From Shewanella woodyi ATCC 51908 (GTDB lineage Bacteria > Pseudomonadota > Gammaproteobacteria > Enterobacterales > Shewanellaceae), in contig NC_010506.1 of assembly GCF_000019525.1 (NCBI RefSeq), positions 62,001-126,000 of the forward strand: DNA of 64,000 nucleotides, written 5' to 3'. The first letter of the stretch is position 1. Each line of letters opens with the position of its first letter. The notes under the pieces are model-generated. The model saw only the letters and a program-made list of their open reading frames with translations, ran no database searches and had not been told where the DNA came from. The translations under genes were made by a program, and so were the position numbers. This document shows positions 39,495 to 60,872 of this stretch, piece after piece.

Positions 39495-39574
39495 AACCTG
39501 CCTAATGAACCCCAAAAAAGATACTTCACCACTTACTATCTGGTAAGTGACTAAAACTTGTTATCAGGCAAGTT
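39495..39574. repeat. AACCTGCC hairpin repeat, copy 3, reaching the moaA stop
   Basis: AACCTGCCTAATGAACCCC at 39495 and TTATCAGGCAAGTT ending at 39574, with a partial internal repetition (CTATCTGGTAAGTGACTAA). It overlaps the first bases of the moaA stop codon region. Confidence 0.6.
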
Positions 39575-40559
39575 AACCCCCAGTTGCATTCATAAACCGC
39601 AATATCTGCACATCGCCCTCATCCCCAAACACATGTTCTTTCGGTTTACGCTTAATCGCCTCTAAAATCGTGGTTTTTAACCGCTCAATATCGCCGGGGA
39701 ACTCACGCACGATAGCTTTGAGATCCACCGAGTGTTCGTTGCCTAAACAGAGGAGTAGGCGACCTTCAACCGTAACGCGTACTCGATTGCACTCATGGCA
39801 GAAGTTATTGCTGTGGGGGGAGATAAAGCCCACATGGATTGAGCTGCCTGGCATAGTGTAATAGCGTGCGGGGCCGCCGGTGCGTTTGTCCGATACCGTG
39901 AGCGGGTAGCGCTGTGAGATGATAGCTTTAACCTCTTCACTGCTGCAGTGACGGCTTTTCTTGCGCTCATCAATTATGCCTAAGGGCATCTCTTCGATAA
40001 ACGCGATATCTAGTTCTCGACCACGACAAAACTCGATAAGATCGAGTACTTCATCATCATTTTGTCCACGAAGGATCACCGCGTTGATCTTGATGCGTTT
40101 AAAGCCTGCGGCCTTGGCGGCGTCTATCCCTTGTATCACCCGCTCAAGTTTGCCATTGCGGGTCAGATCGGTAAAAAGCTCAGGTTTGAGGGTGTCCAAG
40201 CTGATGTTTAATCTTGCTAATCCTGAGCCTCGCATCTTCTGGGCAAACTTGGTGAGTCTGGAGCCGTTGGTGGTCATAGAGAGCTCAGTGAGTCCTGGAA
40301 GCTCGCCTAAGAGCTTAACTAACCGATCGCAGTCGGTGCGAACCAGCGGCTCTCCGCCAGTTAAGCGGATCTTTTTAACGCCTAGTTCGGTAAAGGCTTG
40401 GCCTACCCAAGCTAGTTCTTCGAGGCTTAATACCTGATCTCGTTCGAGAAAGCAGGGGTCTTCGCTCATGCAGTAAACACAGCGAAAATCGCATCTATCG
40501 GTAACAGAGAGACGCAGGTATTCCACCGTACGTCCGAAGGTGTCGACGATTAAACTCAT
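39573..40559 (-). CDS. moaA: GTP 3',8-cyclase MoaA
   Basis: This 328-residue radical-SAM enzyme starts molybdopterin synthesis by converting GTP to the cyclised precursor used to form cPMP. The N-terminal cluster site CDFRCVYCMSE and the C-terminal 4Fe-4S site (CHECNRVRVTVEGRLLLC) are both complete. The protein ends in Gly-Gly, essential for activity in the family. It is the last gene of the tup-mob-moe operon, 21 bases after mobB/moeA. The partner moaC and moaE/D genes are not in the window. Confidence 0.95.
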   Translation of the reverse strand: MSLIVDTFGRTVEYLRLSVTDRCDFRCVYCMSEDPCFLERDQVLSLEELAWVGQAFTELGVKKIRLTGGEPLVRTDCDRLVKLLGELPGLTELSMTTNGSRLTKFAQKMRGSGLARLNISLDTLKPELFTDLTRNGKLERVIQGIDAAKAAGFKRIKINAVILRGQNDDEVLDLIEFCRGRELDIAFIEEMPLGIIDERKKSRHCSSEEVKAIISQRYPLTVSDKRTGGPARYYTMPGSSIHVGFISPHSNNFCHECNRVRVTVEGRLLLCLGNEHSVDLKAIVREFPGDIERLKTTILEAIKRKPKEHVFGDEGDVQILRFMNATGG

Positions 40560-40580: not shown

Positions 40581-42386
40581 CTATAAAAGGTCGGCAAAAG
40601 GTTGAATGTAAACGGTATCACCTGGATTCAACTGTTCATCTTGTTCACCGATAACGACGAAACAGTTTCCCTTTACCATTGAGCTCAACATCCCTGAACC
40701 TTGTGCACCTGTAGTGGTTACATGTAGCTTGCCATCTGCCGCTAAGTGAAATACACCTCGAGTAAACTCGGTGCGTCCGACACGGCTGCGCATCTTGCAA
40801 TCGGCAACAGCGGGAACCATGGTCTGGCTCCAGTTTTTCTCGCCCGCAAGCTTTCTTAGGGCGGGTTGGACAAATTGCATAAAGGAGACCATAACGGCAA
40901 CTGGGTTACCCGGTAAGCCGAAGAAGAGGCTGTCACCTATCTGTCCGAAGGCCAAAGGCCTGCCAGGACGCATATTGATGCGCCAGAAGTTAATCTGTCC
41001 CACTTTTTCTAGAGCCAGCTTGATAAAGTCGGCATCGCCAACGGAAACTCCACCTGAGCTGATCACCACATCGGCTTTTACCGCCGCTTGGCTCAGTGCA
41101 TCTGCTAGTGCCTCTTCTGAGTCATGTATGATGCCTAAATCGATCACCTCACAACCTAGCTTTCTTGCCATCGATTTTATGGTAAAGCGGTTTGAGTCGT
41201 AGATGCAGCTTGCTTTGAGTGGTTCACCGGGCTCACACACTTCATCACCAGTTGAGAACACGGCGACTTTAGGGCGTCTAAATACCGGCAGTTTGCCAAA
41301 ACCTAGTGAGGCGAGCATACCTTGCTCTGGTGCCTGCAGGCGGTTATGAGCCGCTAGCGCTGTTTTGCCTTTAGCGATATCTTCACCTGCCAGTCTGACA
41401 TGTTGACCTAAGGTGATATCACCTTGAAAGCTCACATTGTTGCCGCTCTCTGTTGCCAACTCTTTCATCTGCACGGTATCAGCACCTGCGGGTACTGGTG
41501 CGCCTGTCATGATGCGTACAGCTTCACCAGCTTGCAGGGTGCCAGCATATTGGTGACCCGCCATCACATCGGCGACTAAGGTGTAGCTTTCTAACATGGG
41601 CTCAGAGTAGTTAAACGCATAACCGTCCATGGCCGAGTTGGTCTGTTGAGGTACATCTACTGGTGAGATTGCATCTTGGGCGAGTACGCGGCCATTGAGT
41701 TCGTCGAGTTCGACAAGCTTGTGCTCAGTTACAGGGGTCACATAGGAGAGTATTTTCTCTATGCCTTGGCAGACTGAAAGTGTTTTGCTGCTATCGAGTT
41801 CGCAGCCGCACTCCGGGGTTTGGGGCGTTAAAGGTAGCTTGCTGGTGGGCTGCCAGTTTTGAGCATATTCGATAACGAAGTCGGCTATCTGGCCTACGTC
41901 ATTGATATCGAGTCGGCGTAGTTCGCTAGGAACTTGTGTGTCGTCACAGCAGGCGATCGCTTGAATATTGCTGTCGTGGGTATGAATAAAGGGTTTTCCG
42001 TGGGCGGCACGGTGAAGCTCTATCTTAGGCAGCTCAAGCTTTTTAAATCCCTCGACGAGTACGATATCGACGGCGTCTTGCTCAATCTGCTGCAGTAGGT
42101 GAGGCAGTTCGGGCGCTTCATCGACCTCATCTTCTGTCATCAATGCCCAACGTATATGGGAGGCGACCAACATCTGTCTTGCGCCAGCTTTGCGCATCTC
42201 GTAACTGTCTTTACCGGGAATATCCACATCGAAGTTATGATGAGCATGCTTAATGACGGCGAGTTTTATGCCGCGATTATTCAGCTCAGGAATGAGCTTC
42301 TTCAGCAGAGTGGTTTTTCCTGTGCCACTGTAGGCACAAAATCCGAGGACAGGGATCGACAGCGGATTGGTAAAGGGAGTAGACAT
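40581..42386 (-). CDS. MobB-MoeA fusion protein
   Basis: This 601-residue protein joins two molybdenum-cofactor proteins. Residues 1-170 are MobB-like, with Walker A FCAYSGTGKTTLL and VIKHAHHNFDVDIPGKDS, a GTP-binding adaptor for MGD formation. From about 205 it is MoeA (NSAMDGYAFNYSEP, GGVSVGDADF, PGRPLAFG and FFGLPGNPVAV), which inserts molybdate into adenylated molybdopterin. A linker with CGCELDSSK lies between. Both halves look complete. The gene is between mobA (14 bases) and moaA, so the late steps of cofactor synthesis share one transcript with the transporter. Confidence 0.93.
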   Translation of the reverse strand: MSTPFTNPLSIPVLGFCAYSGTGKTTLLKKLIPELNNRGIKLAVIKHAHHNFDVDIPGKDSYEMRKAGARQMLVASHIRWALMTEDEVDEAPELPHLLQQIEQDAVDIVLVEGFKKLELPKIELHRAAHGKPFIHTHDSNIQAIACCDDTQVPSELRRLDINDVGQIADFVIEYAQNWQPTSKLPLTPQTPECGCELDSSKTLSVCQGIEKILSYVTPVTEHKLVELDELNGRVLAQDAISPVDVPQQTNSAMDGYAFNYSEPMLESYTLVADVMAGHQYAGTLQAGEAVRIMTGAPVPAGADTVQMKELATESGNNVSFQGDITLGQHVRLAGEDIAKGKTALAAHNRLQAPEQGMLASLGFGKLPVFRRPKVAVFSTGDEVCEPGEPLKASCIYDSNRFTIKSMARKLGCEVIDLGIIHDSEEALADALSQAAVKADVVISSGGVSVGDADFIKLALEKVGQINFWRINMRPGRPLAFGQIGDSLFFGLPGNPVAVMVSFMQFVQPALRKLAGEKNWSQTMVPAVADCKMRSRVGRTEFTRGVFHLAADGKLHVTTTGAQGSGMLSSMVKGNCFVVIGEQDEQLNPGDTVYIQPFADLL

Positions 42387-42400
42387 TGATACCTCGAATA

Positions 42401-42991
42401 TTATTTGGCAATTGCCTCAGCAAGTTGTTGTTTTTGTTCTGGCGTATTCACATTAATAAAGGCATTAGGTTGATCTGAAAATTCGGTCACGACACAGTGA
42501 TGTTTAGCGTACCAAAAATCTATTTTACGCTCGCCACCATCTAAAAATGCCTTCATGGAGTCACGTAAACTGGGTTTTAACAGCAGTACGACAGGCTGTT
42601 CGCGTTTTCCATCGCTTGCCACGGCAAGCTCAGCGCCCTCACTCTGGATTTTAGTCAGCATACGCTCAACAAGATCTAAAGGTAACAGTGGGCAATCACA
42701 AGGAACCACTAACAGATAATCTGCTTGAGTCTGTCCCATGGCGGTGATCATACCAGCCAACGGCCCTAAGTAGCCTGAGTCTTCATCGCTGAAAACCGGG
42801 TAACCTAAGTCAGCATAACGACTTTGGTTACGATTTGCGTTGATCATGATCTCCTTAACTTGAGGTTTTATCCGATCTATCGAATGTTCTATCATAGGCT
42901 TGTCTAATAGCTCGACTAAACCTTTGTCGTTCCCACCCATACGTCTGGCCATGCCGCCAGCTAAGATGACAGCATCAATTCGCAATGACAT
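42401..42991 (-). CDS. mobA: Molybdenum cofactor guanylyltransferase
   Basis: This 196-residue enzyme attaches GMP to Mo-molybdopterin to make MGD for DMSO-reductase-type enzymes. The N-terminal [16 protein letters not shown] is the GTP-binding loop, followed by [10 protein letters not shown] with the metal Asp and INVNTPEQ near the end. ATG 42991 ([13 protein letters not shown]) has AGGA nine bases upstream. The longer frame to 43072 lies inside tupC in another frame and is rejected. The start overlaps the tupC 3' end by 17 bases, indicating translational coupling. Confidence 0.94.
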
Positions 42992-43694
42992 ATCTTGGTT
43001 CCTGTAATGTTGTTTGGGGACTCGTGGCGCAGCTTGCATCGTTAATTGATGAGCTAATACCTTGATTCTCAATACGCCAGTTTTGGTCGCATAAACTAGT
43101 TAGTGCGCAAGATTGATGGCTACTGACTAGCATTCCTGTACCTAGCTGTTGCAGATCTTTGACCATAGCTAAGACTAACTCTTGAGAGTAGGTGTCCATG
43201 TTAGAGGTCGGCTCATCTAGCATGAGTAACTTGGGTTGCATAATCCAAGCTCTGGCGATAGCCAGACGCTGCCGCTCACCACCAGATAGACTAGAGGCTG
43301 CTTGCTTAGTGAGATGAGTCAGGCCTGCTTTTTCTATCGCATCCTGGGTTCTTTGCTCTATAAGCTGTTTGCTTATGGTGCAAAATGGGTGCGGGTAGCG
43401 CAGGTTGTACTCAACACTGCCATCGAACAGGTAGGGGTGTTGGTGCAGATAAACTGCCTTGCCCAGCAGAGAGTTTGAACGCCACCAAGGCAGTGGTGCG
43501 AAGCCTTGAGTGGTGATTTGACCTTTGGTTGGTGCAATCAAGCCTGCTAGCATCTTCATCAAGGTGGTTTTGCCACTGCCGTTATCACCTTGCAGGTGTA
43601 CGGTTTGACCTTGAGAGAGCTGTATTCTCTCGACGGCGAAGAGCCTGCGCTCACCAAAGCGCATCTCGATATTTTGAGCGATCACTTTAACCAT
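42975..43694 (-). CDS. tupC: Tungstate/molybdate ABC transporter ATP-binding protein
   Basis: This 239-residue ABC ATPase has Walker [15 protein letters not shown], signature [15 protein letters not shown], Walker [13 protein letters not shown] and a switch His in VSSHQSC. It powers the TupB permease. The substrate is inferred from tupA and from the molybdenum-cofactor genes downstream, not from the ATPase itself. It lacks the C-terminal TOBE domain of ModC. It begins 3 bases after tupB. Confidence 0.9.
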
Positions 43695-43697
43695 ATC

Positions 43698-44405
43698 TTA
43701 ATGGCTCCTCGGCTCAGCTTTTCCCCTTAGCGTACCTAAGGTGAAGTTGAGAACAAGTGACAGGATAAGCAGCACTAAGCCAAGCGCTATCGCTTGTGCA
43801 AAGTCCCCTTTACTGGTTTCCAAGGCGATGGCCGTGGGTATATTACGGGTGACATCGGCAATGTTACCTCCCACCATCATTGAGCAGCCTATTTCAGTTA
43901 ATATTCGGCTAAATCCCGCGACGATGGCCAGCAGTAGAGGCACTTTTAGCTCTCTGCAGAGTGTCCAGATGGATCTGAACCAAGAGGCGCCTAAGGTACG
44001 TGATGTTTCCCATGCACGCCTATCGACACTAGTAAAAGCGGCTTGGCTCATCGAGACTAGCACGGGGGCGCAGATCAGCATCTGACCCAGTATCATCCCC
44101 TTTTGCGTGAATAGCCATCTTAGATCGCCCAAGGGACCCATGCGAGTCAGCATTAGGTAAACCAGTAGACCGATAACGACTGTGGGGATCGATTGCAGGG
44201 TTTGGATCATATTGGTGATAAACCAGCGTCCGCGAAACCGTCCGAAAGCCAGAATAAAACCCAATATCATTGAGGGAAGTAGAGTGATCGCCAGTGCTGC
44301 AAAAGAGACAGAAAAGGAGACAGAAACAATGGACCATACATCTGGATCCAATGAAAACAGCAGGCCTAAGGCCTGCTGTATAAGGGCTAACCAGCCTTCA
44401 TTCAT
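43698..44405 (-). CDS. tupB: Tungstate/molybdate ABC transporter permease
   Basis: This 235-residue inner-membrane permease has about five or six hydrophobic segments and the EAA-like cytoplasmic loop AAFTSVDRRAWETSRTLGASWFRSIW, which contacts the ATPase. Family resemblance is to TupB/WtpB-type permeases of tungstate uptake. It follows tupA after 94 bases that carry an attenuator-like hairpin. The ATG at 44405 gives a natural start. Downstream tupC is nearly abutting. Confidence 0.9.
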   Translation of the reverse strand: MNEGWLALIQQALGLLFSLDPDVWSIVSVSFSVSFAALAITLLPSMILGFILAFGRFRGRWFITNMIQTLQSIPTVVIGLLVYLMLTRMGPLGDLRWLFTQKGMILGQMLICAPVLVSMSQAAFTSVDRRAWETSRTLGASWFRSIWTLCRELKVPLLLAIVAGFSRILTEIGCSMMVGGNIADVTRNIPTAIALETSKGDFAQAIALGLVLLILSLVLNFTLGTLRGKAEPRSH

Positions 44406-44425
44406 CTGTGATACACCAATTTGAA

Positions 44426-44455
44426 AAATGGCGCACCTAGAACATTAGGTGTGCC
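44426..44455 (-). terminator. Attenuator-like hairpin between tupA and tupB
   Basis: On the minus strand GGCACACCTA/TAGGTGCGCC (44455-44446 with 44439-44430; one mismatch) is followed by ATTTTT. It could stop part of the transcripts after tupA, yielding more binding protein than permease, or protect the tupA 3' end. Confidence 0.6.
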
Positions 44456-44499
44456 TGTTACACAAGATTGTAAATAAAAGCTTAAGCAGAACCTTAGGG

Positions 44500-45312
44500 T
44501 CATTCGCTATATGTTGCCTTAAATAGTTGCTCACCTTGAACCTTATAGCTATTAATCATGCCTTGAGCTTCAGCACCGATTAACCAGTCACTAAAGGCAC
44601 GTGCGCCTTTATGATTCAGTTCAGGGTATTTTTCTGGGTTAATTAATACGATCTGATAAGGGTTTGCTAGTGCTTTACCGCCATCATAATCAATCGCAAG
44701 ATCTAATTTTGCTTTATACGCTACAAATGTACCACGATCTGACAGGGTGTAACCCTGAAGCTCGCTAGCCATTAATAGTGTCTTACCCATGCCTTGGCCT
44801 ACGGCTTTGTAGCCATTAAAAGTCAGCGCGATATCGGCATTTTTCCAGATAATTAACTCTTTCATGTTAGTGCCAGAGTTATCGCCACGAGAGATAAAGG
44901 TGGCGCCAGACTTGGCTATTTTAGCAAATGCTTCCTCTGCTGTCTTACTGCCACGGATCTTAGCTGGGTCATTTTTAGGGCCTAAGATCACAAAATCGTT
45001 TTCCATAATGCCACGAGGCAAAATTCCGAAGCCTTCGTTAACGAATTTTGCTTCAGCCGCTGGCGCGTGAGTCATCACTAGATCCACATCGCCTTGGCGA
45101 GCAAGTTTTAATGCTTTGCCTGTGCCTGTTGCTATCACTTGTACTTTATAACCAGTTTCTGCTTCAAATTTAGGCAGTAGGTTTTTCAATAAACCTGAGT
45201 TCTCTGTACTGGTTGTTGTCGCTAACTTGATAATCTCTTCTGCTGTTGCAGGCATAGCTGTGACTAGAGTTGCAGCTAAAGCTAAGCTGAAGATAGATTT
45301 AAGGTTTAACAT
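44500..45312 (-). CDS. tupA: Tungstate/molybdate-binding periplasmic protein
   Basis: This 270-residue protein has a Sec signal peptide (cleaved near ATA/EE, residue 24). The TupA hallmark KLATTTSTENSGLL is present, whose TTTS binds the oxyanion. RGDNSGTNMKEL and SDRGTFVAY are further TupA motifs. It delivers tungstate, possibly also molybdate, to TupBC. Start ATG 45312 has AAGGAG five bases upstream. The frame runs 60 codons further upstream but that part crosses the sigma-54 promoter and is not coding. The gene is first of the operon running to moaA. Confidence 0.94.
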   Translation of the reverse strand: MLNLKSIFSLALAATLVTAMPATAEEIIKLATTTSTENSGLLKNLLPKFEAETGYKVQVIATGTGKALKLARQGDVDLVMTHAPAAEAKFVNEGFGILPRGIMENDFVILGPKNDPAKIRGSKTAEEAFAKIAKSGATFISRGDNSGTNMKELIIWKNADIALTFNGYKAVGQGMGKTLLMASELQGYTLSDRGTFVAYKAKLDLAIDYDGGKALANPYQIVLINPEKYPELNHKGARAFSDWLIGAEAQGMINSYKVQGEQLFKATYSE

Positions 45313-45394
45313 TCTTGCTCCTTGGCGTTTATGGAAATGGCCCTCTGCCAAGATGGACCACTTAAAATTTTGTATTACTCTTAGAGACTTATTT

Positions 45395-45411
45395 AGCAAG
45401 TTGAGTGCCAA
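45395..45411 (-). promoter_or_regulatory. Sigma-54 promoter of the tup-mob-moe-moa operon
   Basis: The minus strand reads TTGGCACTCAACTTGCT (45411-45395). It matches the -24 (TGGCAC) and -12 (TTGCW) elements with the exact five-base spacing. Transcription should start near 45384, about 70 bases before the tupA ATG. The adjacent divergent gene encodes a sigma-54 activator with an intact GAFTGA loop. Confidence 0.85.
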
Positions 45412-45487
45412 CTTATCCTGTCCGATTTTTGCTTCACAAAACATTGGGCTTTGTGATCTCCATCGCAAATAGAAATGGTCCAATACA

Positions 45488-45499
45488 GACATTTTGTCC
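45488..45499. promoter_or_regulatory. Candidate enhancer site GACATTTTGTCC
   Basis: The 12-mer lies about 105-115 bases upstream of the predicted sigma-54 start, a normal activator distance. The same 12-mer occurs at 53717-53728 before the TonB-receptor gene, and a near copy in the opposite orientation at 45570. That the neighbouring response regulator binds it is inference. Confidence 0.5.
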
Positions 45500-45569
45500 C
45501 ACGTGCCTCATTCTTTGGTTCACAGTGACCTATTTGCTCAACTATGGTGATAGAATCACCAGTATATGA

Positions 45570-45581
45570 GTCAAAATGTCC
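45570..45581. promoter_or_regulatory. Second candidate enhancer site GTCAAAATGTCC (inverted)
   Basis: Its complement GGACATTTTGAC shares GACATTTTG with the site at 45488. It lies about 190 bases upstream of the tupA start and only 14 bases before the response-regulator ATG, so it could also mediate autoregulation. Confidence 0.45.
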
Positions 45582-45594
45582 TAAAGAAGACAAT

Positions 45595-46974: not shown

Positions 46975-46978
46975 TAGG

Positions 46979-50334: not shown

Positions 50335-51006
50335 TTAGGCTAAGTTTTGTTGGTCACCAGTAGCCTGAGATGGATTAACTATCTTCTGCTCGAGTATTTT
50401 TAGCAAAACGCCGTAGGCAGGCAAGAATAGGCCTAAGCTGACAATCAGTTTAAATCCATAATCTACCGTTGCGATTTCGGGCCAGTGCTGAGCCATAAAG
50501 GCATCAGTTGAAGCGTAAAAGGCCAGAGCGAAAAAGACAATCGTATCTACCAGATTGCCTATTAAGGTTGAAGCTGCTGGAGCTACCCACCAAGAGCGAG
50601 TATCTCTGAGTTTTGCAAATACAGTGATATCCATTAATTGACCGACTAAGTAGGCGGCAAAACTGGCAAAGGCGATACGAAATACAAAGGTATTAAATTC
50701 AGATAGTGAACTTAGTCCTTGAAAGCTGCCTTGATGAAAGAGTACTCCCATTAGGTAGGAGATAAGCAGCGCTGGCAGCATCGCCTTGAGGATAATGCGC
50801 CGTGCCGGACTTTGGCCAAATATTCTGACGGTCAGATCCGTTGCCAAATACACAAATGGAAAGCTAAATGCGCCCCAAGTGGTATGAAACCCAAAGATCT
50901 GAAAGGGCAGTTGAACCAAGTAATTACTGGCGCAAATAATGGAGATATGGAAGCCGACGAGCAACAATAGTGCACGACGGACCTGTGTGGTCGTTAAGGT
51001 TAACAT
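50335..51006 (-). CDS. yhhQ: YhhQ/VUT family queuosine precursor transporter
   Basis: This 223-residue inner-membrane protein has about six transmembrane helices and the family patterns ASNYLVQLPF, FPFVYLATDLTVRIFG, AAYLVGQLMDITVF and STLIGNLVDTIVFF. The E. coli YhhQ imports preQ0 and preQ1 for queuosine tRNA modification. Start ATG 51006 has AAAAAGG seven bases upstream. That Shine-Dalgarno lies within a possible preQ1-I riboswitch. A GCAAGCATTA/TAATGCTTGC hairpin lies just after the stop. Confidence 0.9.
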   Translation of the reverse strand: MLTLTTTQVRRALLLLVGFHISIICASNYLVQLPFQIFGFHTTWGAFSFPFVYLATDLTVRIFGQSPARRIILKAMLPALLISYLMGVLFHQGSFQGLSSLSEFNTFVFRIAFASFAAYLVGQLMDITVFAKLRDTRSWWVAPAASTLIGNLVDTIVFFALAFYASTDAFMAQHWPEIATVDYGFKLIVSLGLFLPAYGVLLKILEQKIVNPSQATGDQQNLA

Positions 51007-52094: not shown

Positions 52095-53462
52095 AAGCTC
52101 GGTAAGAATTGAGAGTATGGTGGTGAGTTTATTCTCCAGCTCTATCCACTCAGAGTCGGCCTCAGATCCTGACACTATGCCTGCTCCAGCAAACAAGTTG
52201 ATACGACCAGGTTCGATTAGCGCGCTGCGAATCGCCACAGCAAATTCACTCTCGTACTTGTTAAAGTAACCACATGCCCCCGCATACCAACCTCTGGCAT
52301 AGCCTTCACTTTGGCGAATAAAACTCATGGCAGGCTCTTTGGGTAAACCACCAACTGCCGGTGTTGGATGTAGCGCTTGAAGTAACTGAAAGTCATCAAC
52401 CCCAGGCTTTAACTCCGCACGAATTGAGCGATGAAGGTGCTGAATGTGACTGAGCTTAAACACTTTAGGAATGCTCTCTGCACCCACATAATTACTCAGA
52501 GGTGTTAGCGCATCGACAATATGATCTTTGACCAATCGGTTCTCATGGCTATTCTTATTATCTTCCATCAGTGTCTGAGCAAGCACCTTGTCCTCTTCAA
52601 GGTTCAAACCTCTGGTAGTGGTGCCTGCCAGAGCCTCGGTGAATAGCTCTCTTTGTCTACGCCGATATAACCGCTCCGGAGTACAGGAGATAAAGGTGCT
52701 ATCGGGACTAAACTGAAAGCCAAACTGAAAACTGTTTTTATTCCGCCCTTGCCAACAAGCAAGTAGCATCCAAGGATCGACAGGTTGATTTATCTCAAGT
52801 TGAGTTAAACGGGAGAGCACAACCTTAGGGGTCTCTTGGATAAACTTTTGATGAGTGACCTGATTAACCAGTTCAGTCCAGCGGTAGCGGTCTGGTCGAT
52901 CGCTACGACTTAAGATATTTATCTTGTTTGGTGGTGGTAGAGGCTTTGGAGAAGCAAGCTGAGCTAAGCTCGTCATGGCCTGATCGCGTTCTGATTCGGC
53001 GTTACCCGTTTCGCAGTTTAGGTTTACCAGCAGCTTGTAGTCGTTACCATGACGCCTAAGCTCGACCCGAGGAAGGACAAAGTGGGCACGGCCAAATTCA
53101 GGCCAACACTCTGTGGTTCTATCGAAAGCAACGCCACCGTAATAACGGATATCTTGATTGTTTGAGAGCGCTCTTTGCTTCTGATATTCAATAGAGAGTT
53201 GATTATCATCAATATTATCTGCGTAGAAGAAATCTTTACAGCAACCGATCGCTGCCACTTCCTCTTCCGTGTCTCTGCCCTTCCAATAGATCCTTGGGTA
53301 GCAAGGTTGAGCTGCAAGCCAAGCGATGGCTGGAACAGGCTTAATAGACACAGACAGTTGAATGATAGGATCGCTTTGTGTTTGAAATTTGAGTTGTTTT
53401 AAAGTGTCAGTAAGAGAGGCAATAGCCTGTGACAACGAGTAGACAGCCAATTCAAACTCCAA
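52092..53462 (-). CDS. menF: Isochorismate synthase MenF
   Basis: This 456-residue enzyme converts chorismate to isochorismate for menaquinone. The chorismate-binding block has LAGTTTRG (residues about 281-288, the switch region), LHPTPAVGGLP and GYARGWYAGACGYF, with the Mg site near SGSEADSEWIELENK. The N-terminal 170 residues are less conserved, as in MenF. EntC is less likely since no siderophore genes are near, and menaquinone is central to Shewanella respiration. Its stop is supplied by a repeat. Confidence 0.9.
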   Translation of the reverse strand: MEFELAVYSLSQAIASLTDTLKQLKFQTQSDPIIQLSVSIKPVPAIAWLAAQPCYPRIYWKGRDTEEEVAAIGCCKDFFYADNIDDNQLSIEYQKQRALSNNQDIRYYGGVAFDRTTECWPEFGRAHFVLPRVELRRHGNDYKLLVNLNCETGNAESERDQAMTSLAQLASPKPLPPPNKINILSRSDRPDRYRWTELVNQVTHQKFIQETPKVVLSRLTQLEINQPVDPWMLLACWQGRNKNSFQFGFQFSPDSTFISCTPERLYRRRQRELFTEALAGTTTRGLNLEEDKVLAQTLMEDNKNSHENRLVKDHIVDALTPLSNYVGAESIPKVFKLSHIQHLHRSIRAELKPGVDDFQLLQALHPTPAVGGLPKEPAMSFIRQSEGYARGWYAGACGYFNKYESEFAVAIRSALIEPGRINLFAGAGIVSGSEADSEWIELENKLTTILSILTEL

Positions 53463-53862
53463 AACATATCAGAAATAACGAAGATTACAGCTAAGGCCAG
53501 ATCCCTAAATAGTGGGGAATAGCAAAGTATCAAGCGTGTGAACAATAATCTTTAACACAAAGTAATGTGCGCGGGAAAAAGTGTCAAGTTGCAGCCTGCC
53601 AAGCTGTGAGGTTAGCCGTAAATTCAACACTGAACCTCCTATTTTGAACGTATTTTCATGAGCTTGGCTATATTCGTTAAGCGTGTTTCTTTTTGTCCAA
53701 AACCCTGTCCATCTTAGACATTTTGTCCTTCTTGTGTTGCCTCTTCCTCAGATAATGTATGAATTAGTCGATCTAGGTTTGTTTTATGATTTTATTTGCT
53801 TGAGCGATAGTGAGTGCTCTTTAAAAATAGCGCCAAATATATCGTTAGGGTTATGAAACTAG
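53463..53862. other. Divergent spacer menF / TonB-receptor gene
   Basis: These 400 bases hold GACATTTTGTCC at 53717-53728, further TTTTTGTCC (53691) and CCTGTCC (53704) half-copies upstream of it, and otherwise AT-rich DNA. No B12, TPP or other riboswitch, no Fur box and no -24/-12 promoter was found on either strand. Confidence 0.55.
53717..53728. promoter_or_regulatory. GACATTTTGTCC motif before the TonB/ECF operon
   Basis: This is an exact copy of the 12-mer at 45488-45499. It is about 135 bases upstream of the receptor ATG, with extra TGTCC half-copies within 30 bases on its left. A shared regulator with the tup operon is inferred. Confidence 0.45.
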
Positions 53863-55812
53863 ATGAAAAAACAACAAAAAGTGCTGAGAGTATCTAGCTT
53901 GGCGCTAGCCATGAGCTTGGCTTATCAGGTTCAGGCTGATGAAATCGAAAGAGATCCAATTCTTGATGTGACAGACGTTATTGTGGTGCACGGTGAGCGC
54001 GCTTCAGTAACCGAGGCCGCTACGACTCATTGGAGCGTAGATGCGGAAGAAATTAAGGCGTCAGGCGCACAGAGTTTAGATCAAGTTCTTGAAAACGTTC
54101 CAGGGGTTTATGTGCGCGTGGGTGGTGATTCAACTCCACGAGTTGATATTCGAGGTTTAAAAACGCGCCACATTACTTTCTTAATTAACGGTGTACCAGC
54201 AAGTAGCACCGAAGATGGTCAGTTTGATCCAAGTGTTATCCCAACGAATCTAATTGCTCGAGTTGATGTTTCTGTTGGTCCTACATCTGTGCTGTATGGC
54301 CCGGGTGGAAGTGCGGGTGTGATTAACATTATCACTAAGCAAGGTGATGAATCATCTTCGCTGTCAGGTAAAGTAGAATCCGCTGCTGACAATACGCTCA
54401 ATGCTGATATCAGTGCAGCAGGTTCAGGTGATAACTGGCAAGGTATTATGAGCGTGACTCATCAAGAAACTGATGGCACTCCAATGCCTGATGATTTTGA
54501 AGATACGCGCAATCAGATCGGTGATCTGCGCTTTAATTCAGACAGAAAGTTAACTAACTACTACGCCCAAGGTAGTTACTTCATCAACGATTCAACTAAG
54601 TTAATGGCTAATTACACTCAGCGTGATGGTGAGTGGGGGAAAGCACCTACCGTTGACCGCAAGAAAGCTCCCTCAAGGATTGAAGATTTCAATGAGCAAA
54701 GCATGCAACTTGGTGCAGCCCATGAAATAAACGAGAAGTATGTTGTTCGTGGTTTTGTCTACTATAACCAAACAGATATGGTTGAAAACTTCTATAACCA
54801 TAGAATGAACAACCTAAATAGTATTGTTGAAAGTACCTCTAAAGTCAGCGGTACTAACCTTCAATTTATTAGCGAATTTGATTATGGCGCAGTGTTAACC
54901 ACCTCTGTCATTGTTGAAAAGCAAGATTGGTTCTCTCATACAGATAAAATTCGTAGTGAAAAAGGCACGGGCAGTGGTGGCGGCTCTGGCGGCGGTCAAG
55001 GCAGTTCTGGTGATATCGATGAAAGCTTGATGGTTTATACCGGTGCTGCAGAGTACCAATATCAAGATGACGGTATATATGGCTACAGCTTAGGTGTTGC
55101 GGTTCACAATTACGATCTTGATGTGAACAGTGAGACAGACTTTTCAGCGCAAGCGTCTGCATTTTACCAAGTCACAGACTCAAGCCGTATCCATACAGGT
55201 CTTGCTCGAAAAGTTCGTTATCCATCGATCAGCGATCTTTACGCGCCTAACAGCGGTAACGTGAACCTAAAAGCCGAAGTTGCTAACCAGTTTGAACTGG
55301 GTCTACAGCAATCTCTACCTTTCGATACTCAGTTAGATATCAGTAGCTACATAACTGATGCCAATGATTACATTGCTAAAGATGATAACAACCACGAGCA
55401 AAACATTGGTGATTATCGCTTTATGGGGGTTGATTTGCAGATGACGAATCAATATTTCGATAGCCTAGGTTTAACGTTTGCCTATAGCTACATCGATACC
55501 GAGGACCGTGCTACTAATGAGCGTTTGCAATACCGTCCGACCCATAACTTGCGCCTGCAAGCGAGCTATGACTTCTCCTTTGGTTTAACGACACGTTTAA
55601 ATGCTGAGCGCGTTATTGATCAAGTGAATGGCAAAGGTGTTCAGCTAGATAATTACACCTTAGTTGACCTAAGTTTGAGCCAGAATATCTGGCATGACAA
55701 TTTAGAGTTATATGTCCGAGCTACAAACCTATTTGATGAACTTTATTATCAAAGCGACTTTATGCCACAGGCGGGTCGTCAGGTGTTTGTCGGTATTAAC
55801 TGGCAGCTTTAG
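53863..55812 (+). CDS. TonB-dependent outer membrane receptor, substrate unknown
   Basis: This 649-residue protein has a signal peptide (cleavage after VQA, residue 25), a TonB-box-like DVTDVIVVHG (about 37-46) and a plug domain (SLDQVLENVPGVYVRVGG, VDIRGL, LYGPGGSAGVINIITK). A 22-strand-type barrel ends in VFVGINWQL. A loop near residues 367-383 is very rich in Gly and Ser (GTGSGGGSGGGQGSSGD), probably an extracellular loop. The ABC/ECF genes follow with a 3-base gap, so the receptor should bring the substrate of that transporter across the outer membrane. It resembles siderophore and cobalamin receptors in layout only. Confidence 0.93.
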   Translation: MKKQQKVLRVSSLALAMSLAYQVQADEIERDPILDVTDVIVVHGERASVTEAATTHWSVDAEEIKASGAQSLDQVLENVPGVYVRVGGDSTPRVDIRGLKTRHITFLINGVPASSTEDGQFDPSVIPTNLIARVDVSVGPTSVLYGPGGSAGVINIITKQGDESSSLSGKVESAADNTLNADISAAGSGDNWQGIMSVTHQETDGTPMPDDFEDTRNQIGDLRFNSDRKLTNYYAQGSYFINDSTKLMANYTQRDGEWGKAPTVDRKKAPSRIEDFNEQSMQLGAAHEINEKYVVRGFVYYNQTDMVENFYNHRMNNLNSIVESTSKVSGTNLQFISEFDYGAVLTTSVIVEKQDWFSHTDKIRSEKGTGSGGGSGGGQGSSGDIDESLMVYTGAAEYQYQDDGIYGYSLGVAVHNYDLDVNSETDFSAQASAFYQVTDSSRIHTGLARKVRYPSISDLYAPNSGNVNLKAEVANQFELGLQQSLPFDTQLDISSYITDANDYIAKDDNNHEQNIGDYRFMGVDLQMTNQYFDSLGLTFAYSYIDTEDRATNERLQYRPTHNLRLQASYDFSFGLTTRLNAERVIDQVNGKGVQLDNYTLVDLSLSQNIWHDNLELYVRATNLFDELYYQSDFMPQAGRQVFVGINWQL

Positions 55813-55815
55813 TCC

Positions 55816-57171
55816 ATGAGTTTACTTGAGCTAGATGGGGTGAGTTTTCGCTATGACTGTGGCGAGCCGTTTATTCTGGAGGATCTTAATCTCCAGATTA
55901 AACCGGGTGAGTGTCACTGTATTAGCGGGCCGACTGGCTCAGGTAAATCGACGCTGCTTAAGTTGATTATGGGTGTTCTTTCACGGCCCTTTGACGGTGA
56001 AATGATTAGAACTGGTGACTTAACACTGGGTCTAGTGATGCAAGATCCCAATGTGCAGTTTATCCGTCAAAGTGTGGGGGCTGAGGTTGCTTTTGCACTG
56101 GAAAACTTATGTGTTCCGCTTGAGTTAATGCGGGCTAAAGTGATCTCCGCCTTAAGAAAGGTGGGTCTGTTTGTTCGCTTAGATATGCCGATTGAGCAGT
56201 TGTCTTTGGGGCAGAAGTACCGCGTCATGATAGCGGCTCAACTGGTTTTCGAGCCCGAGATACTCCTACTTGATGAGCCTTGGGCTCAACTCGATAACTC
56301 TGGGGTTGAAGAGCTTATATTGGTCTTGTCACAGCTAAAACGTGACGGGGTTGCGGTGCTGCTGGTGGATCATAACCCAAGGGCGTTTAGCGAGCTGGTT
56401 GATGCTTTTTATCATATGAAAGATGGAAGCTTAGTGGCTGGCTGTTTACCACCTGTTACTGTCGAGCATCTTGTTGGTGCTCCTGTATTGCTCGACACTT
56501 GCGTGGTGCAAGCTGAACCATTTGAGTTCAGCTTTATCGATCAAGCGCCACTGTTTAAGAGCGTAGAACCCTTAGCTATCTATAGTGGCGAGATTATCGC
56601 TCTGATAGGCGATAACGGTACTGGCAAGAGCAGTTTTTTGAAAACTCTTGCGGGGATCCAAGCGGATATCGGTAAGCTGCCTCTCACTGTGCTAGGCAAG
56701 CAACCTAAATTAGGTATTTTTGGCGCTGAGATGGGACTCCTGCTACAGGCGCCTAATCGTCAACTGTTTGAAGAGACTGTTTTAGGGGAGTTGCAGTTTA
56801 GCCTAAAGCGTTTCGGCTTGCCGCTACATCGGGCTGAGCAGTTGTTGGATGAGCTGGAGTTAAGCCATTTAGCCGAGCACTCTCCTCACAAACTCTCCTA
56901 TGGTCAGCAACATATGGTGGCATTGGCCTCTTTAGTCTGCCTAAGGCCTAAAGTGCTTCTGCTCGACGACCCGTTTGCTGGGTTAGATGCTGAGTACCTT
57001 AATCGTGTCTGGTCTTTGCTGGTCAATCTTAGTCATAGGGGAAGTGCAATTTTACTGACGAGTCATCGGCAGATGGTAAACCTACCTGTCACTCGGTATT
57101 GGCAGGTCGAAGCGGGCTTTCTGCGCTGCGAATATGATCCCTCTGTTACTCAAACCTTGCAGTTCGGTTAG
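55816..57171 (+). CDS. ECF-type fused double ABC ATPase
   Basis: This 451-residue protein holds two ABC ATPase domains in one chain, like EcfA-EcfA' fused. The first has Walker A GPTGSGKST (38-46), signature LSLGQKYRVM and Walker B ILLLDEPW. The second has GDNGTGKSSF (about 265-274), LSYGQQHMV and VLLLDDPFAG. In the second Walker B the catalytic Glu is replaced by Asp (DDPF), which may weaken that site. The gene lies between the receptor and EcfT. It should energise uptake of an unknown vitamin, metal or other scarce compound. Confidence 0.92.
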   Translation: MSLLELDGVSFRYDCGEPFILEDLNLQIKPGECHCISGPTGSGKSTLLKLIMGVLSRPFDGEMIRTGDLTLGLVMQDPNVQFIRQSVGAEVAFALENLCVPLELMRAKVISALRKVGLFVRLDMPIEQLSLGQKYRVMIAAQLVFEPEILLLDEPWAQLDNSGVEELILVLSQLKRDGVAVLLVDHNPRAFSELVDAFYHMKDGSLVAGCLPPVTVEHLVGAPVLLDTCVVQAEPFEFSFIDQAPLFKSVEPLAIYSGEIIALIGDNGTGKSSFLKTLAGIQADIGKLPLTVLGKQPKLGIFGAEMGLLLQAPNRQLFEETVLGELQFSLKRFGLPLHRAEQLLDELELSHLAEHSPHKLSYGQQHMVALASLVCLRPKVLLLDDPFAGLDAEYLNRVWSLLVNLSHRGSAILLTSHRQMVNLPVTRYWQVEAGFLRCEYDPSVTQTLQFG

Positions 57172-57184
57172 GTGAGTTTTGACT

Positions 57185-57850
57185 ATGAAAACTAGGAGAG
57201 GTGTTCGTCATTCAACACTGGAACGAAACGCTGATAGAGGCTCAAAGTCCATTGGCTGGACTGCTGGTGCGCTGAGCTTAGCGTTAATCTTATCGAGTAG
57301 CGCATTTTTCATCCCACAAGATTATCTATTGGCGCTTATCGTTTGTGACATTGTCTTGGTTATCCATGGTGTTTTTCGCCGTGGTGACTTTTGGGTTCTG
57401 GGACGGGTGTTTCTCGTTCAACTTGCAATCACTCTGACGCTCTATTACTTAATTCACGGCCAAGAACAGCTAGTCCAAGGGGCCTTAGCTGTGGTTAGGG
57501 TGTTGCTGGCATTTATTCCTGGTTGGTGGCTATCAGTGAGCTGTAAGCCTGAGCAGATAGGTGAAGTCCTTGCCTGGATATTACCAGTCAAATGGGCCTT
57601 TGTTATCGCTGCCTCGTTAAGTTTACTGCCGACAATGACAACTGAGATTCGAGAGATATACCAAACTCAATGTCTGCGAGGGGCAAAAATATCCCCCAAG
57701 GCGTTGAGAGATCCAAGAAATTGGGCCGAGTTGATCCATTGCGTTGTTTTTCCACTCCTTATTCAACTGCTTAAGCTATCTAAGCAAACTGCGATGGCTG
57801 CTCAACTGCGTTATTTTGGCAAACATAAACGCACGACTCACTGGCGTTAG
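57185..57850 (+). CDS. ECF transporter T component (EcfT/CbiQ family)
   Basis: This 221-residue inner-membrane protein has about five transmembrane helices and two cytoplasmic arginine motifs, QTQCLRGAKISPKAL and AAQLRYFGKHK. They correspond to the two coupling helices (x-R-G) that contact the ATPases in ECF transporters. ATG 57185 is chosen with GGTGAG eight bases upstream. A TTG at 57179 would add two residues. The gene follows the ATPase by 13 bases and precedes the S-like gene. Confidence 0.87.
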   Translation: MKTRRGVRHSTLERNADRGSKSIGWTAGALSLALILSSSAFFIPQDYLLALIVCDIVLVIHGVFRRGDFWVLGRVFLVQLAITLTLYYLIHGQEQLVQGALAVVRVLLAFIPGWWLSVSCKPEQIGEVLAWILPVKWAFVIAASLSLLPTMTTEIREIYQTQCLRGAKISPKALRDPRNWAELIHCVVFPLLIQLLKLSKQTAMAAQLRYFGKHKRTTHWR

Positions 57851-57877
57851 TCGTGCTCATCATTAAAGAAGGTTGTT

Positions 57878-58423
57878 ATGGGTAAAGTTTTAAATTTCAG
57901 TCTGCAGGATGCACTTTTTATCGGTTTTTGCGCCACCTTACTGGTCGCACTAAAGAGCATGTTACGCCTTAAGTTAGGCATAACAGGTCACTCTATGTTT
58001 CTGATGACATTTTTCTATCTTATCTGCTACGGGGTTGTTGGTCGTGTGGGCTGTATTACCGCCTGTGGTCTGCTGTCTGGCTTGGTTGCCATGATGCTGA
58101 GTATCGGAAAAGGGGGCCCTTTGATCCTGATAAAGTTCGGTTTACCTGCCTTAGCGATGGACTTGAGCATGTTGCTGTTTTCTGGACTGTTGACCTTAAA
58201 GCTACGCTGTATTGTCGTTGGTTTAGTTGGTTGCTTTGCCTGGGCTGCCAAAAGCTGGGTTGAAAATCTGCTGGTGGGGATGACTATTCAGGTAGCCTTG
58301 GTGCAGTTTATGTTGAGTATGCTCAAGGGGGGCGTATTTACCATTTTGGCTGCATTAATGGTTCCCTCTGTGTTAAGTCGATTAAAAGCACATGATCTAC
58401 TGTTTAACGAAGATGTGAAGTAA
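57878..58423 (+). CDS. Putative ECF S component, substrate-binding membrane protein
   Basis: This 181-residue hydrophobic protein with about five or six membrane helices (for example DALFIGFCATLLVALKSML and FLMTFFYLICYGVVGRVGCI) lies directly after EcfT, where S components sit. It has no recognised substrate signature for biotin, riboflavin, thiamin, cobalt or queuosine S proteins. A run MMLSIGKGGPLILIKFGL could be the binding face. SD AAGAAGG precedes the ATG. The role is inferred from size, topology and place. Confidence 0.72.
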   Translation: MGKVLNFSLQDALFIGFCATLLVALKSMLRLKLGITGHSMFLMTFFYLICYGVVGRVGCITACGLLSGLVAMMLSIGKGGPLILIKFGLPALAMDLSMLLFSGLLTLKLRCIVVGLVGCFAWAAKSWVENLLVGMTIQVALVQFMLSMLKGGVFTILAALMVPSVLSRLKAHDLLFNEDVK

Positions 58424-58488
58424 CTCCTTGTGAGTGGTTACTTAGCTTGATTGCTAATTCTATTGCACTATTTTTCTAGGAAAAAAAA

Positions 58489-59241
58489 ATGAATCTACCC
58501 CCATTGAAATCTTGGCTTATCTGTATTGATGATACCGATGATATTGGCACTAAAGGTACCGGTGAGATTGCTGAAGAGATTGCCAATCTGCTTTGTGATA
58601 GCACAAGTCTGCAACCTTGGGTGACCCGCCATCAGCTATTTGTACATCCAGATATCCCCTATACCTCTCACAACAGTGCCATGTGTTTTCGATTGGAGAC
58701 TCAGGCGCAGCTTGAGCAGATAAAGCAGGTAGCGGTGAAGCATCTAGTTGAACAGAGTGCGCCAGCATCGGATCCTGGTTTAGCGATATTAGAGCTCGAC
58801 ACTGAGTTTGACTCAAACGCATTGGTTGAGTTTGGTTTGCTGGCCAAAAAAGAGGTGATAACTAAACCACAAGCCTATGAGTTGGCAGAAAAGTTGGGTG
58901 TATCACTCAGTGAGCATGGTGGTACAGGGCAAGGGGTGATTGGTGCGTTGGCTGGGTTAGGCTTACGCCTTTATGGTCAAGATGGCCGGGTGAAGGGGCA
59001 AGTTGATCTAGGTCAAGAGGAGTCTGAAGAGGGGGTTAAGTTAACCGTTGCCGAGGTACTTAAGCGGACTGGGCTGGGTAGGGTTATCAGCATCGAGGGT
59101 GAGATCTTAGATGCTTGTGAAATCTTGCACCTCACTAAGAAGGTAAAAGCTATCTACTATCAACATGAGTTTTCCTTGCTGGTTTATCGCCATGAAGGGC
59201 GCTGGTGTAATGCACTGAAAAAACATCTGAAGGCATATTAA
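58489..59241 (+). CDS. Stand-alone TiaS-like (IDDTD) domain protein
   Basis: This 250-residue protein begins with LICIDDTDDIGTKGTGEIAEE. This resembles the ATP-binding N-terminus of archaeal tRNA-Ile2 agmatinylcytidine synthetase TiaS (IDDTDS...), and a later EHGGTGQGVIGALAGLGLR is the second conserved glycine-rich block. The zinc-ribbon and OB parts of TiaS are absent, and bacteria use TilS rather than TiaS. A tRNA role is therefore doubtful, and an ATP-dependent ligase or kinase acting on the imported substrate is possible. It follows the S-like gene after 65 bases with AGGAAAA before the ATG. Confidence 0.68.
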   Translation: MNLPPLKSWLICIDDTDDIGTKGTGEIAEEIANLLCDSTSLQPWVTRHQLFVHPDIPYTSHNSAMCFRLETQAQLEQIKQVAVKHLVEQSAPASDPGLAILELDTEFDSNALVEFGLLAKKEVITKPQAYELAEKLGVSLSEHGGTGQGVIGALAGLGLRLYGQDGRVKGQVDLGQEESEEGVKLTVAEVLKRTGLGRVISIEGEILDACEILHLTKKVKAIYYQHEFSLLVYRHEGRWCNALKKHLKAY

Positions 59242-59243
59242 TC

Positions 59244-59468
59244 ATGGAGAAAGTTATCGCGAGTTTTGAGTTTGATGGACAAGTGTTTCGCTTCAGGTTT
59301 GGTAATGAAAATGAGCTTGAGTCACGGAAAACTGCCAATGAGTGTTATCAATTCACGCCCGATGATGAGGATGAGCAGATCGATGACTTCCCTACCTCCT
59401 GCTATAACTGCATGAACAGACGTTGGCTTATCGATGGGATGGCATGTTCAAAGATTGAACGGATTTAA
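59244..59468 (+). CDS. Small four-cysteine protein, function unknown
   Basis: This 74-residue acidic protein has cysteines at 34, 53, 56 and 68 (NECYQF, SCYNCM, MACSK). They could bind a metal or an iron-sulfur cluster. It begins two bases after the TiaS-like stop and is clearly in the same transcript and probably translationally coupled. Its N-terminal IASFEFDGQVFRFRF looks like a beta hairpin. No family is recognised. Confidence 0.65.
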   Translation: MEKVIASFEFDGQVFRFRFGNENELESRKTANECYQFTPDDEDEQIDDFPTSCYNCMNRRWLIDGMACSKIERI

Positions 59469-59693
59469 TGTTGAATAGTAAAATCTATTTACTAAGAGGT
59501 ATTTAATTTATATGAATCACTTAACCATAATGGCACTAAGGTTTTATGTTTTGATTTTTATCGGTTTTTTAGTTTATTAGTTGGTCTGGCCTCGCTAGTA
59601 TATACTCTTCTAAAAAAATTAAAGAAGGTAAGCCGTACTAATATATTAATAAACGCTTACTGGTTTTTATCTTCTTTGGGAGAGTTTGTTCGT

Positions 59694-60872
59694 ATGGTTG
59701 AATCGGTAGAATCTAAGGCTCATGTTAAGTTTCCTGTCTCAAAATTGAGCGTAGGTATGTTTGTTACATCGATTGATAATGATGGGCAAGTGGCCATAAC
59801 CAATGCTGGTCAGATTAAAGACAGAGAAGCGATTAACAAGCTCATCAAAAATGGTATTAAATATGTTTGGGTCGATAAGGAGAGATCTGCCGACTCCTGT
59901 GGTTTTAAAAATACGGTCCAACCTCCTCCAACAGTAAAGAAGAAAGCCCCATCTAGAGAAGCATCACAACAAAAAGCCAAAAAGTTAGTGACCGAAGCGA
60001 AAGATCTATTAGCTAAAGTCTTGTCTGAAACCTTCGAGGGAAAGGCGATAGAGGTCGCACCTTTTGAGGAGTTTGCTGATAACCTTATTGATTCTGCTCT
60101 GCTTGATTCCGATGCACTCAAATGTGTGTCAGCATTAAGAACAAAAGATGCCTATCTGCTTGAACACTCCGTCAATGTCGCCTTTTTATTGATCACCTTT
60201 GGTCAGCACCTTAACCTTGATAAGCAAAAGCTTAAGGAGATGGCTGTCGGTGGCATATTGCATGATGTGGGTAAGATTCAAGTCGATGATAAAGTACTCC
60301 ACAAACCGGGCAAGTTGAGCCAGGAGGAGTTTGAGCACATGAAGAAGCATCAGAACTTCGCCATGAATATTATGTCAAAAACCGATGGCATATCGCAGAT
60401 AAGCAAAGATGTTTGTTTGATGCATCATGAGAAGCTTGATGGTAACGGTTACCCCAATGGATTAAAGGGAGAGGAGCTGCCACTTCATGGGCGTATGAGC
60501 TGTATTGTGGATATTTATGACGCCTTAACTGCTAAGCGTTGTTACAAAGATGCCATGAGTCCAGCAGCGGCATTTAAAGTGTTACTTAGCTTAACCCCTT
60601 TTCACTTAGATGAAGCATTGGTTTATCAGTTTATTCGCTCTGTTGGCGTCTATCCCGTAGGCTCTCTTGTTGAGCTCTCTGATGGTCGAATAGGGATTGT
60701 ATGGCATGCAAAAGGTAGAGATGCACTACACCCGATACTGAAATGCTTCTATTCTATTAAACATAAACGCTATCTCGATGTGACGTTCGTTGATCTGCTT
60801 AAGAGTGATGCCAATATTGAACGCGGTATTTCCCCCTGTAGCCTCGATGTCGATCCAGCTCCATTTTATTGA
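59694..60872 (+). CDS. HD-GYP domain cyclic-di-GMP phosphodiesterase
   Basis: This 392-residue protein has an N-terminal DUF3391-type region (FPVSKLSVGMFVTSI...) and an HD-GYP domain. HDVGKI carries the HD metal pair, and HHEKLDGNGYPNGL the HHExxDGxGYP signature with all ligands present, so it should hydrolyse c-di-GMP. ATG 59694 is preceded by GGAGAG nine bases upstream. It is unlinked in function to the preceding operon, with a 225-base gap. The hairpin at 60897-60915 follows. Confidence 0.93.
   Translation: MVESVESKAHVKFPVSKLSVGMFVTSIDNDGQVAITNAGQIKDREAINKLIKNGIKYVWVDKERSADSCGFKNTVQPPPTVKKKAPSREASQQKAKKLVTEAKDLLAKVLSETFEGKAIEVAPFEEFADNLIDSALLDSDALKCVSALRTKDAYLLEHSVNVAFLLITFGQHLNLDKQKLKEMAVGGILHDVGKIQVDDKVLHKPGKLSQEEFEHMKKHQNFAMNIMSKTDGISQISKDVCLMHHEKLDGNGYPNGLKGEELPLHGRMSCIVDIYDALTAKRCYKDAMSPAAAFKVLLSLTPFHLDEALVYQFIRSVGVYPVGSLVELSDGRIGIVWHAKGRDALHPILKCFYSIKHKRYLDVTFVDLLKSDANIERGISPCSLDVDPAPFY

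Follow-up and report, generated by a model that had tools for sequence, protein, structure and literature searches.

A six-gene operon with a TonB receptor and an ECF transporter

The 64,000-nucleotide stretch analysed here (the window; Shewanella woodyi ATCC 51908, contig NC_010506.1, positions 62,001 to 126,000) contains at window positions 53863-59468 six genes, all read in the forward direction, that had been singled out in a first-pass annotation as an uptake system of unassigned substrate. Searches with Pfam and NCBIfam, together with predicted models, confirmed its list of parts. The first gene (53863..55812) encodes a 649-residue TonB-dependent outer-membrane receptor (PF00593/PF07715). 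It is followed by a 451-residue protein (55816..57171) with two ABC_tran stretches, a fused EcfA-EcfA' ATPase of the energy-coupling factor (ECF) type whose top NCBIfam matches are ECF ATPase models, under their cut-offs, and by EcfT of the CbiQ family (223 residues, 57179..57850, with an alternative ATG start at 57185; PF02361 at 40.1 bits against a cut-off of 25). The fourth product is a membrane protein of 181 residues and six helices (57878..58423), which we assign as an S component of a separate sequence family on the basis of a predicted model, Foldseek, an alignment (A3) and a profile. The last two are a 250-residue protein (58489..59241), referred to here as the IDDTD protein after its motif, with a TiaS-type kinase domain (TCKD) and about 90 more residues, and a 74-residue four-Cys protein (59244..59468) with the pattern C-x18-C-x2-C-x11-C and an acidic DDEDE stretch.

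The transporter genes have the make-up of a group I ECF transporter: two EcfA-type ATPase domains, here in one chain, an EcfT of the CbiQ family and, on the predicted model, a six-helix S-fold protein in the same operon. That model has a pLDDT of 86.6 and its top five Foldseek matches are S components, the best being 5edl (TM 0.67, E 3e-3), with none reaching E <= 0.001. The S protein gave no sequence match to any of the curated S families tested and no Pfam match, CbiM included, and the suspicion that it might prove to be a known S component was not borne out. Across the 34 rows of A3, G37, H38, M40, G80 and P81 are invariant and K26, R30, K78 and K86 nearly so, residues that would suit an anionic cargo. 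To all appearance the operon encodes a genuine uptake system whose ECF transporter is dedicated to it, import itself being a prediction.

The receptor's top NCBIfam match is the BtuB-type model TIGR01779, at 137.8 bits, and the fused ATPase also matches cobalt-type models, as might be expected were this a system for vitamin B12, heme, cobalt or some other unrelated compound. We consider that very improbable: the receptor score is far below the BtuB cut-off of 599.7, the S protein does not match CbiM, and the sole riboswitch of any other type than that described below that Rfam scans found near relatives of the operon is a glycine riboswitch on the opposite strand of a Ferrimonas locus (L069), no systematic search of the neighbourhoods for cobalamin or heme genes having been made. 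Among the six operon genes, Pfam and NCBIfam revealed neither a TupA/ModA/WtpA-type binding protein nor a FecB or FecCD match, so the operon is not of the MolABC type. In L063, a Desulfobacterium locus that also carries a FecBCD-type importer, the receptor finds the window receptor as its best match in the S. woodyi genome (E 9.7e-86; next, 3.3e-13).

The IDDTD and four-Cys proteins are a recurrent pair

The S and IDDTD proteins occur in the identical 83 of 129 Shewanella genomes, always adjacent and co-oriented, and there is no case of the S protein without the IDDTD protein. Strains listed with both include S. piezotolerans WP3. The co-occurrence that the first-pass annotation proposed to look for is therefore real, and the gene set is conserved elsewhere, which that annotation had left in doubt. 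An alignment search confirmed at least 572 IDDTD loci, the best 80 of which (40 from Shewanella, 40 from others) were examined. The four-Cys motif lies no more than 0.9 kb downstream of the IDDTD gene in 40/40 Shewanella loci and 26/40 others (66/80 in total). With a naive open reading frame (ORF) caller and counting by hand, the six genes were found in full order in 21 of the 40 Shewanella loci, and most of the others miss one gene because an overlapping ORF masks it or because it is cut short or split. The IDDTD gene itself is split or contains stops in a few Shewanella genomes (G370, G407, G422, L050).

The 40 loci from outside Shewanella were joined by 20 from the class of Sporotomaculum, for which 24 of 113 sampled genomes carry an IDDTD protein, 4 of these 24 being among the 40 already; the resulting 60 loci are partly non-independent (L094 and L109, for instance, share mostly 90-99% identity with loci already counted). 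When importers were tallied with profiles built from the loci, several stretches being incomplete, 21 loci had the S protein, 28 had a FecCD permease and/or FecB-type binding protein, none had both and 11 had neither, so that importer parts share a stretch with the IDDTD gene in 49 of the 60. Because the loci carry S or FecBCD parts but never both, it is the importer type that varies and the IDDTD protein, mostly with the Cys protein, that is constant; the two are a recurrent pair. The Cys motif is present at 42 of these loci, a TonB receptor at 16 and an Ig-like surface protein at 32.

The S profile comprised 29 rows of A3, mostly from Shewanella and with P0197 and P0198 as the most distant, and the loci of the Geobacter group, the Ferrimonas/Oceanospirillum type and the Firmicutes were left out of it. 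It matched eight Ferrimonas/Oceanospirillum-type loci, five of the Geobacter group at E 2e-42 to 7e-45 and six from Firmicutes at E 1e-16 to 1e-18, and L075 and L061 weakly. Each of the Firmicutes loci has two ATPases first, then EcfT, an Ig-like surface protein, a protein of 147-155 residues (in five of the six), S and IDDTD, and the Cys motif is found in all six stretches.

Some loci depart from these arrangements. L071, L077 and L079 have two or three tandem IDDTD paralogues beside FecBCD-type parts, one with a degraded motif (IDDSLQLD or similar). L054, on a contig named Marinobacter nauticus, shares gene clusters with the Ferrimonas loci L051 and L069, and its name may be wrong. In L056 (67-3197) and L099 (35-2841), a different EcfA/EcfT pair lies near the IDDTD unit together with genes that by eye resemble mobB or small kinase genes; this pair is possibly another ECF module for molybdenum or tungsten (Mo/W).

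Some relatives of the operon lie behind molybdenum/tungsten cofactor riboswitches

Rfam scans covered 53 of the 60 loci (33 plus the 20 from the Sporotomaculum class; L046-L048 and L051-L054 lay outside the scan). RF01055, the riboswitch of the molybdenum and tungsten cofactors (Moco/Tuco), is present in 24 of the 53. In 22 (16/33 and 6/20) it immediately precedes the IDDTD, ECF or FecBCD unit, leaving 31 loci without one there; the placement was judged from positions and entered by hand. Broken down by importer, this placement is seen in 9 of 28 FecBCD loci, in 5 of the 14 S loci scanned (all of the Geobacter group) and in 8 of the 11 with neither. One copy precedes the IDDTD gene and another the ECF unit in L064, L066, L070 and, by position, L078. 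The loci contain 28 copies in 406 kb, as compared with 184 in the roughly 113 Mb of the same 33 genomes, a density roughly 40-fold higher against a background that was summed by hand and is a lower bound, only 69 candidates having been scored for most genomes. The first-pass annotation had held that no riboswitch reveals the substrate, which is correct for the window operon itself; part of its relatives, some of them among Mo/W genes, stand behind just such elements.

The RNAs themselves are of a particular form. The P3 stem is absent from 12 of the 12 RF01055 alignments displayed, eight of which precede the unit and four neighbouring genes (three in L072, one in L080), and the other full-length matches at the loci measure 116-123 bases, some of those outside the loci in these genomes 135 or more. 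According to excerpts of Regulski et al. (2008; PMC2408646), RNAs lacking P3 go with tungsten-cofactor genes; the excerpts also refer to an operon of Syntrophomonas whose genes had no known function and which may correspond to the system of the window. We favor tungsten, by a modest degree, as the metal in anaerobes.

Riboswitch-bearing units that have no importer in their stretch (e.g., L085 and L096) favor a role for the IDDTD-Cys pair in cofactor assembly. Taken further, the pair might mature Mo/W cofactors or enzymes and not act on import at all, the transporter being merely co-regulated. The eight importer-less loci with a riboswitch before the IDDTD/Cys unit (L084, L085, L087, L096-L099 and L103) speak for this, the stretches of L087 and of the class loci being short and L084 containing a receptor-like gene, as does L098, in which a gene for a membrane Fe-S oxidoreductase with CCG and Fer4 domains (3780-5849) comes just before the Cys and IDDTD genes. 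L097 and L103 have genes of 671 and 686 residues at the matching place. Given that importer parts lie in the same stretch in most of the 60 loci and that the S protein never occurs without the IDDTD protein in Shewanella, we regard a pair divorced from import as distinctly improbable. As a separate observation, genes whose N-termini resemble that of the L098 oxidoreductase start downstream of the Cys gene in L104 and L107.

Other upstream elements were also considered. The AATAAGAATCTTTACCACAAAGTAAT element (window 53541-53566) is conserved upstream of the receptor in many Shewanella, and was dropped as a regulatory site since it lies ~230-375 bases upstream, on the menF side; it is absent where the neighbour is not menF, and also from some loci with menF, and it probably belongs to menF. 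A search of the region before the receptor gene for simple sigma-54 and ModE-like patterns yielded two weak matches over 39 loci, and none in the window.

Molybdenum and tungsten genes in the neighbourhood

A cluster resembling moaA/mobB-moeA/tupCBA (39573-45492) is located 8-14 kb from the window operon, on the opposite strand; the first-pass annotation had not connected the two. It encodes MoaA (39573..40559; TIGR02666, 361.6 bits, cut-off 284), a MobB-MoeA fusion (40581..42386; NF011060, 1067 bits, cut-off 532), a TupC-like ATPase (42975..43694), a TupB-like permease (43698..44405; NF041773, 172.6 bits, under its cut-off of 320, and NF038017, over its cut-off) and the tungstate-binding protein TupA (44500..45492; NF041772, 209 bits, cut-off 400, its sole match). 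TupA is supported further by a match to the tungstate-binding protein of PDB 3lr1 (E 3.6e-71, second to the uncharacterized 3muq) and by a match to a TupA-like query; the TupC label derives from gene order with TupAB, the protein being a generic ABC ATPase for which NF041774 (93 bits, under the cut-off of 400) is the last of 25 matches listed. The substrate is therefore less devoid of clues than had been stated, given the tupABC and moa/moe genes in the window and the riboswitches and Mo/W genes of the relatives.

Three other features of the window may be recorded here. A sigma-54 type response regulator and a histidine kinase (45544-49096) adjoin the cluster; the regulator ORF begins 51 bases away from that of tupA and on the opposite strand, and our guess is that this two-component pair serves Mo/W or formate sensing. 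A YhhQ-type transporter of the 7-deazaguanine (queuosine precursor) class is encoded at 50335-51006 (361 bits, cut-off 252), on the strand opposite to the operon and separate from it, and a Spot 42 sRNA lies at 8532-8654.

TupA is encoded in 83/83 Shewanella genomes with the IDDTD protein and in 36/46 without it, and the distance between tupA and the IDDTD gene does not exceed 50 kb in 58 of the 66 genomes that have both on one contig, the strands being opposite in each of the 58. Farther afield, clusters with MoeA, MoaA, MoaC, MOSC, TupA or Mo-storage-type genes, mostly named by eye, accompany 9 of 42 loci (L056, L059, L060, L063, L064, L074, L076, L080 and L086). MoaC was confirmed at the cluster positions in L056 and L080, and L063 has a Mo-storage protein (E 1.6e-62) and a MoeA family member under the curated cut-offs. 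In addition, L057 has a MOT1 molybdate carrier, L071 a molybdopterin oxidoreductase with an XdhC-domain protein, and L074 an aldehyde:ferredoxin oxidoreductase (AOR). AOR proved uninformative as a co-occurring tungsten enzyme: 97 of the 113 genomes of the Sporotomaculum-class sample carry it, including, on comparison by hand, 20 of the 24 with the IDDTD protein.

An alternative cargo would be free tungstate or molybdate, the receptor and ECF transporter moving the oxyanion as such while metal handling or regulation would fall to the IDDTD and Cys proteins as partners. TupA-type proteins or MOT1 in some neighbourhoods would fit, as would the invariant H38 and nearly invariant basic residues of the S protein and the existence of MolABC, a FecBCD-type importer of molybdate. 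Oxyanions, however, pass porins, and a second route would be redundant in Shewanella, where all the IDDTD-bearing genomes have TupA; we consider a free oxyanion quite unlikely. The receptor argues for a cargo that is very scarce or passes porins poorly, for which a ligand-bound W/Mo species fits, and a pterin cofactor too.

A proposed tungsten or molybdenum acquisition system

As relatives in distant bacteria often sit behind a Moco/Tuco riboswitch, we read the operon as a Mo/W uptake system: it is probably a system for acquisition of tungsten and/or molybdenum, unlike ModABC, WtpABC and TupABC, and we put the Mo/W assignment at a probability of about 0.85. Several observations weigh against it. 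There is no RF01055 near the window operon (none over the gathering score, and none at E up to 5 within 53400-60000), the one copy in the S. woodyi genome being elsewhere; none was found near the operon in L069, the Ferrimonas locus scanned, the scan having covered no other Shewanella besides the window and none of the seven other Ferrimonas/Oceanospirillum-type loci; and the fetched stretches of the six Firmicutes ECF/S loci contain none. The riboswitch is directly upstream in only 6 of the 20 loci of the Sporotomaculum-class sample, 33 of the 42 loci are without a Mo/W cluster, and the S. woodyi genome has no AOR. The TupA linkage in Shewanella may partly be inherited synteny or shared descent, and the receptor is the sole ground for calling the cargo ligand-bound. 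That the Shewanella operon takes up a W/Mo compound is what we infer from its relatives and from its neighbourhood.

The IDDTD protein has the fold of the TCKD kinase domain, and the TiaS sequence profile aligns to this domain only. Its invariant T24 aligns with Thr18, the autophosphorylated residue of TiaS. Against the curated TiaS equivalog it scores 33.1 bits (cut-off 600) and against methanogenesis marker protein 11 (TIGR03280) 40.5 bits (cut-off 255.8), so the curated cut-offs rule out TiaS and marker protein 11 for this protein just as they rule out BtuB for the receptor. The first-pass annotation described TiaS as an archaeal enzyme; TiaS proper may be one, but bacteria commonly have proteins that contain this kinase domain (5,033 matches at E <= 0.001, the organism names shown among the 120 matches listed being bacterial), and some of these relatives are now named "DNA-binding protein". 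The TiaS reaction uses ATP, and the analogy suggests a cytosolic ATP-using step for the IDDTD-Cys pair, which may chemically modify the imported compound.

On the mechanism that we propose, the TonB receptor would pull a ligand-bound W/Mo compound across the outer membrane, and the S protein would capture it in the inner membrane for import by the EcfT-EcfAA' motor at the expense of ATP. In the cytosol, the IDDTD protein might then use ATP to act on the compound so that its metal is released or committed, and the four-Cys protein might accept the metal or its dithiolene and pass it to cofactor assembly (MoeA). We give this full sequence of steps, from receptor through ECF transporter to the IDDTD and Cys proteins, even odds.

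Another alternative is cofactor salvage, in which the pyranopterin cofactor itself (Moco/Tuco, or a dephosphorylated or dinucleotide form of it) would be imported and its phosphate or nucleotide part restored or changed by the IDDTD kinase, much as kinases restore other salvaged vitamins. MoaC is encoded in 41 of the 42 IDDTD genomes, which makes the cells' own pterin synthesis probable and obligate salvage therefore unlikely; no auxotroph was found, and the resemblance to HPPK may reflect merely a common ferredoxin-like arrangement. We hold salvage to be unlikely, although the least so of the alternatives to acquisition of a ligand-bound metal. Slightly less likely still is the bolder version, that the operon is the first known bacterial uptake route for the W/Mo pyranopterin cofactor, the IDDTD protein being a novel sort of kinase by which salvaged cofactor is re-activated, and the four-Cys protein its carrier.

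The system would be a concrete candidate for Mo/W uptake, present in Gammaproteobacteria, the Geobacter group and Firmicutes. Its importer is of one or the other of two types, Gram-negatives add a receptor, and two cytosolic proteins of unexplained role recur as a pair. The finding offers a testable substrate for an S-component family lacking an assignment, and suggests Mo/W metabolism as the setting of genes that at present bear the name "DNA-binding protein". An excerpt of a 2018 comparative survey (PMC6147048) counts, among 3,683 bacteria that use Mo, 278 with no known Mo/W transporter, and allows that further systems may exist.

Comparison with known systems

In the open-licence PMC literature we found no report joining TiaS with ECF transporters, on methanogenesis marker protein 11, on TonB and ECF in Shewanella, on molybdenum with a TonB receptor and ECF, or on the Moco riboswitch with TonB. 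Judged by titles and the starts of abstracts among the matches listed, none on tungsten, TonB and TupA describes the window system and none on Moco import concerns bacterial import; the match for S components with ECF, Mo and W concerned a cobalt ECF transporter.

The IDDTD protein shares with TiaS (tRNA-Ile2 agmatidine synthetase) the kinase domain fold, the IDDTD motif and the Thr equivalent, but has 250 residues as opposed to ~420, aligns over the kinase domain only and is seen in no tRNA setting. TiaS attaches agmatine (decarboxylated arginine) to a cytidine (PMC7694415, in part). The similarity to marker protein 11, a methanogen marker, is distant, extends across the IDDTD domain and falls far below the cut-off; an excerpt of a study of Methanomassiliicoccales (PMC4153887) reports only markers 10 and 14 as absent, and marker 11 is apparently kept there.

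As in cobalamin uptake by BtuB-BtuFCD, a TonB receptor would feed an ATP-driven importer of the inner membrane, but the window receptor is not BtuB by the curated cut-off and the setting is that of Mo/W genes. The operon resembles those of group I (dedicated) ECF transporters such as CbiMNQO, NikMNQO and BioMNY in uniting EcfA, EcfA', EcfT and S, and differs from them in its separate S family, its fused EcfAA' and its link to an outer-membrane receptor. MolABC is a molybdate importer of the FecBCD/BtuCDF type; the FecBCD-type importers beside the IDDTD gene in 28 of the 60 loci fall into that broad class as well, whereas the window uses an ECF transporter. Three prokaryotic Mo/W importers, TupABC, ModABC and WtpABC, are listed in the excerpt of the 2018 survey (PMC6147048). 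The Mo/W genomic setting of part of the loci and the proposed ATP-driven import are shared with these, yet without such a binding protein among its six genes the operon is ruled out as one of them; in place of a TupA/ModA-type protein it has a TonB receptor and an ECF S component, and it adds to these a kinase-domain protein and a four-Cys protein.

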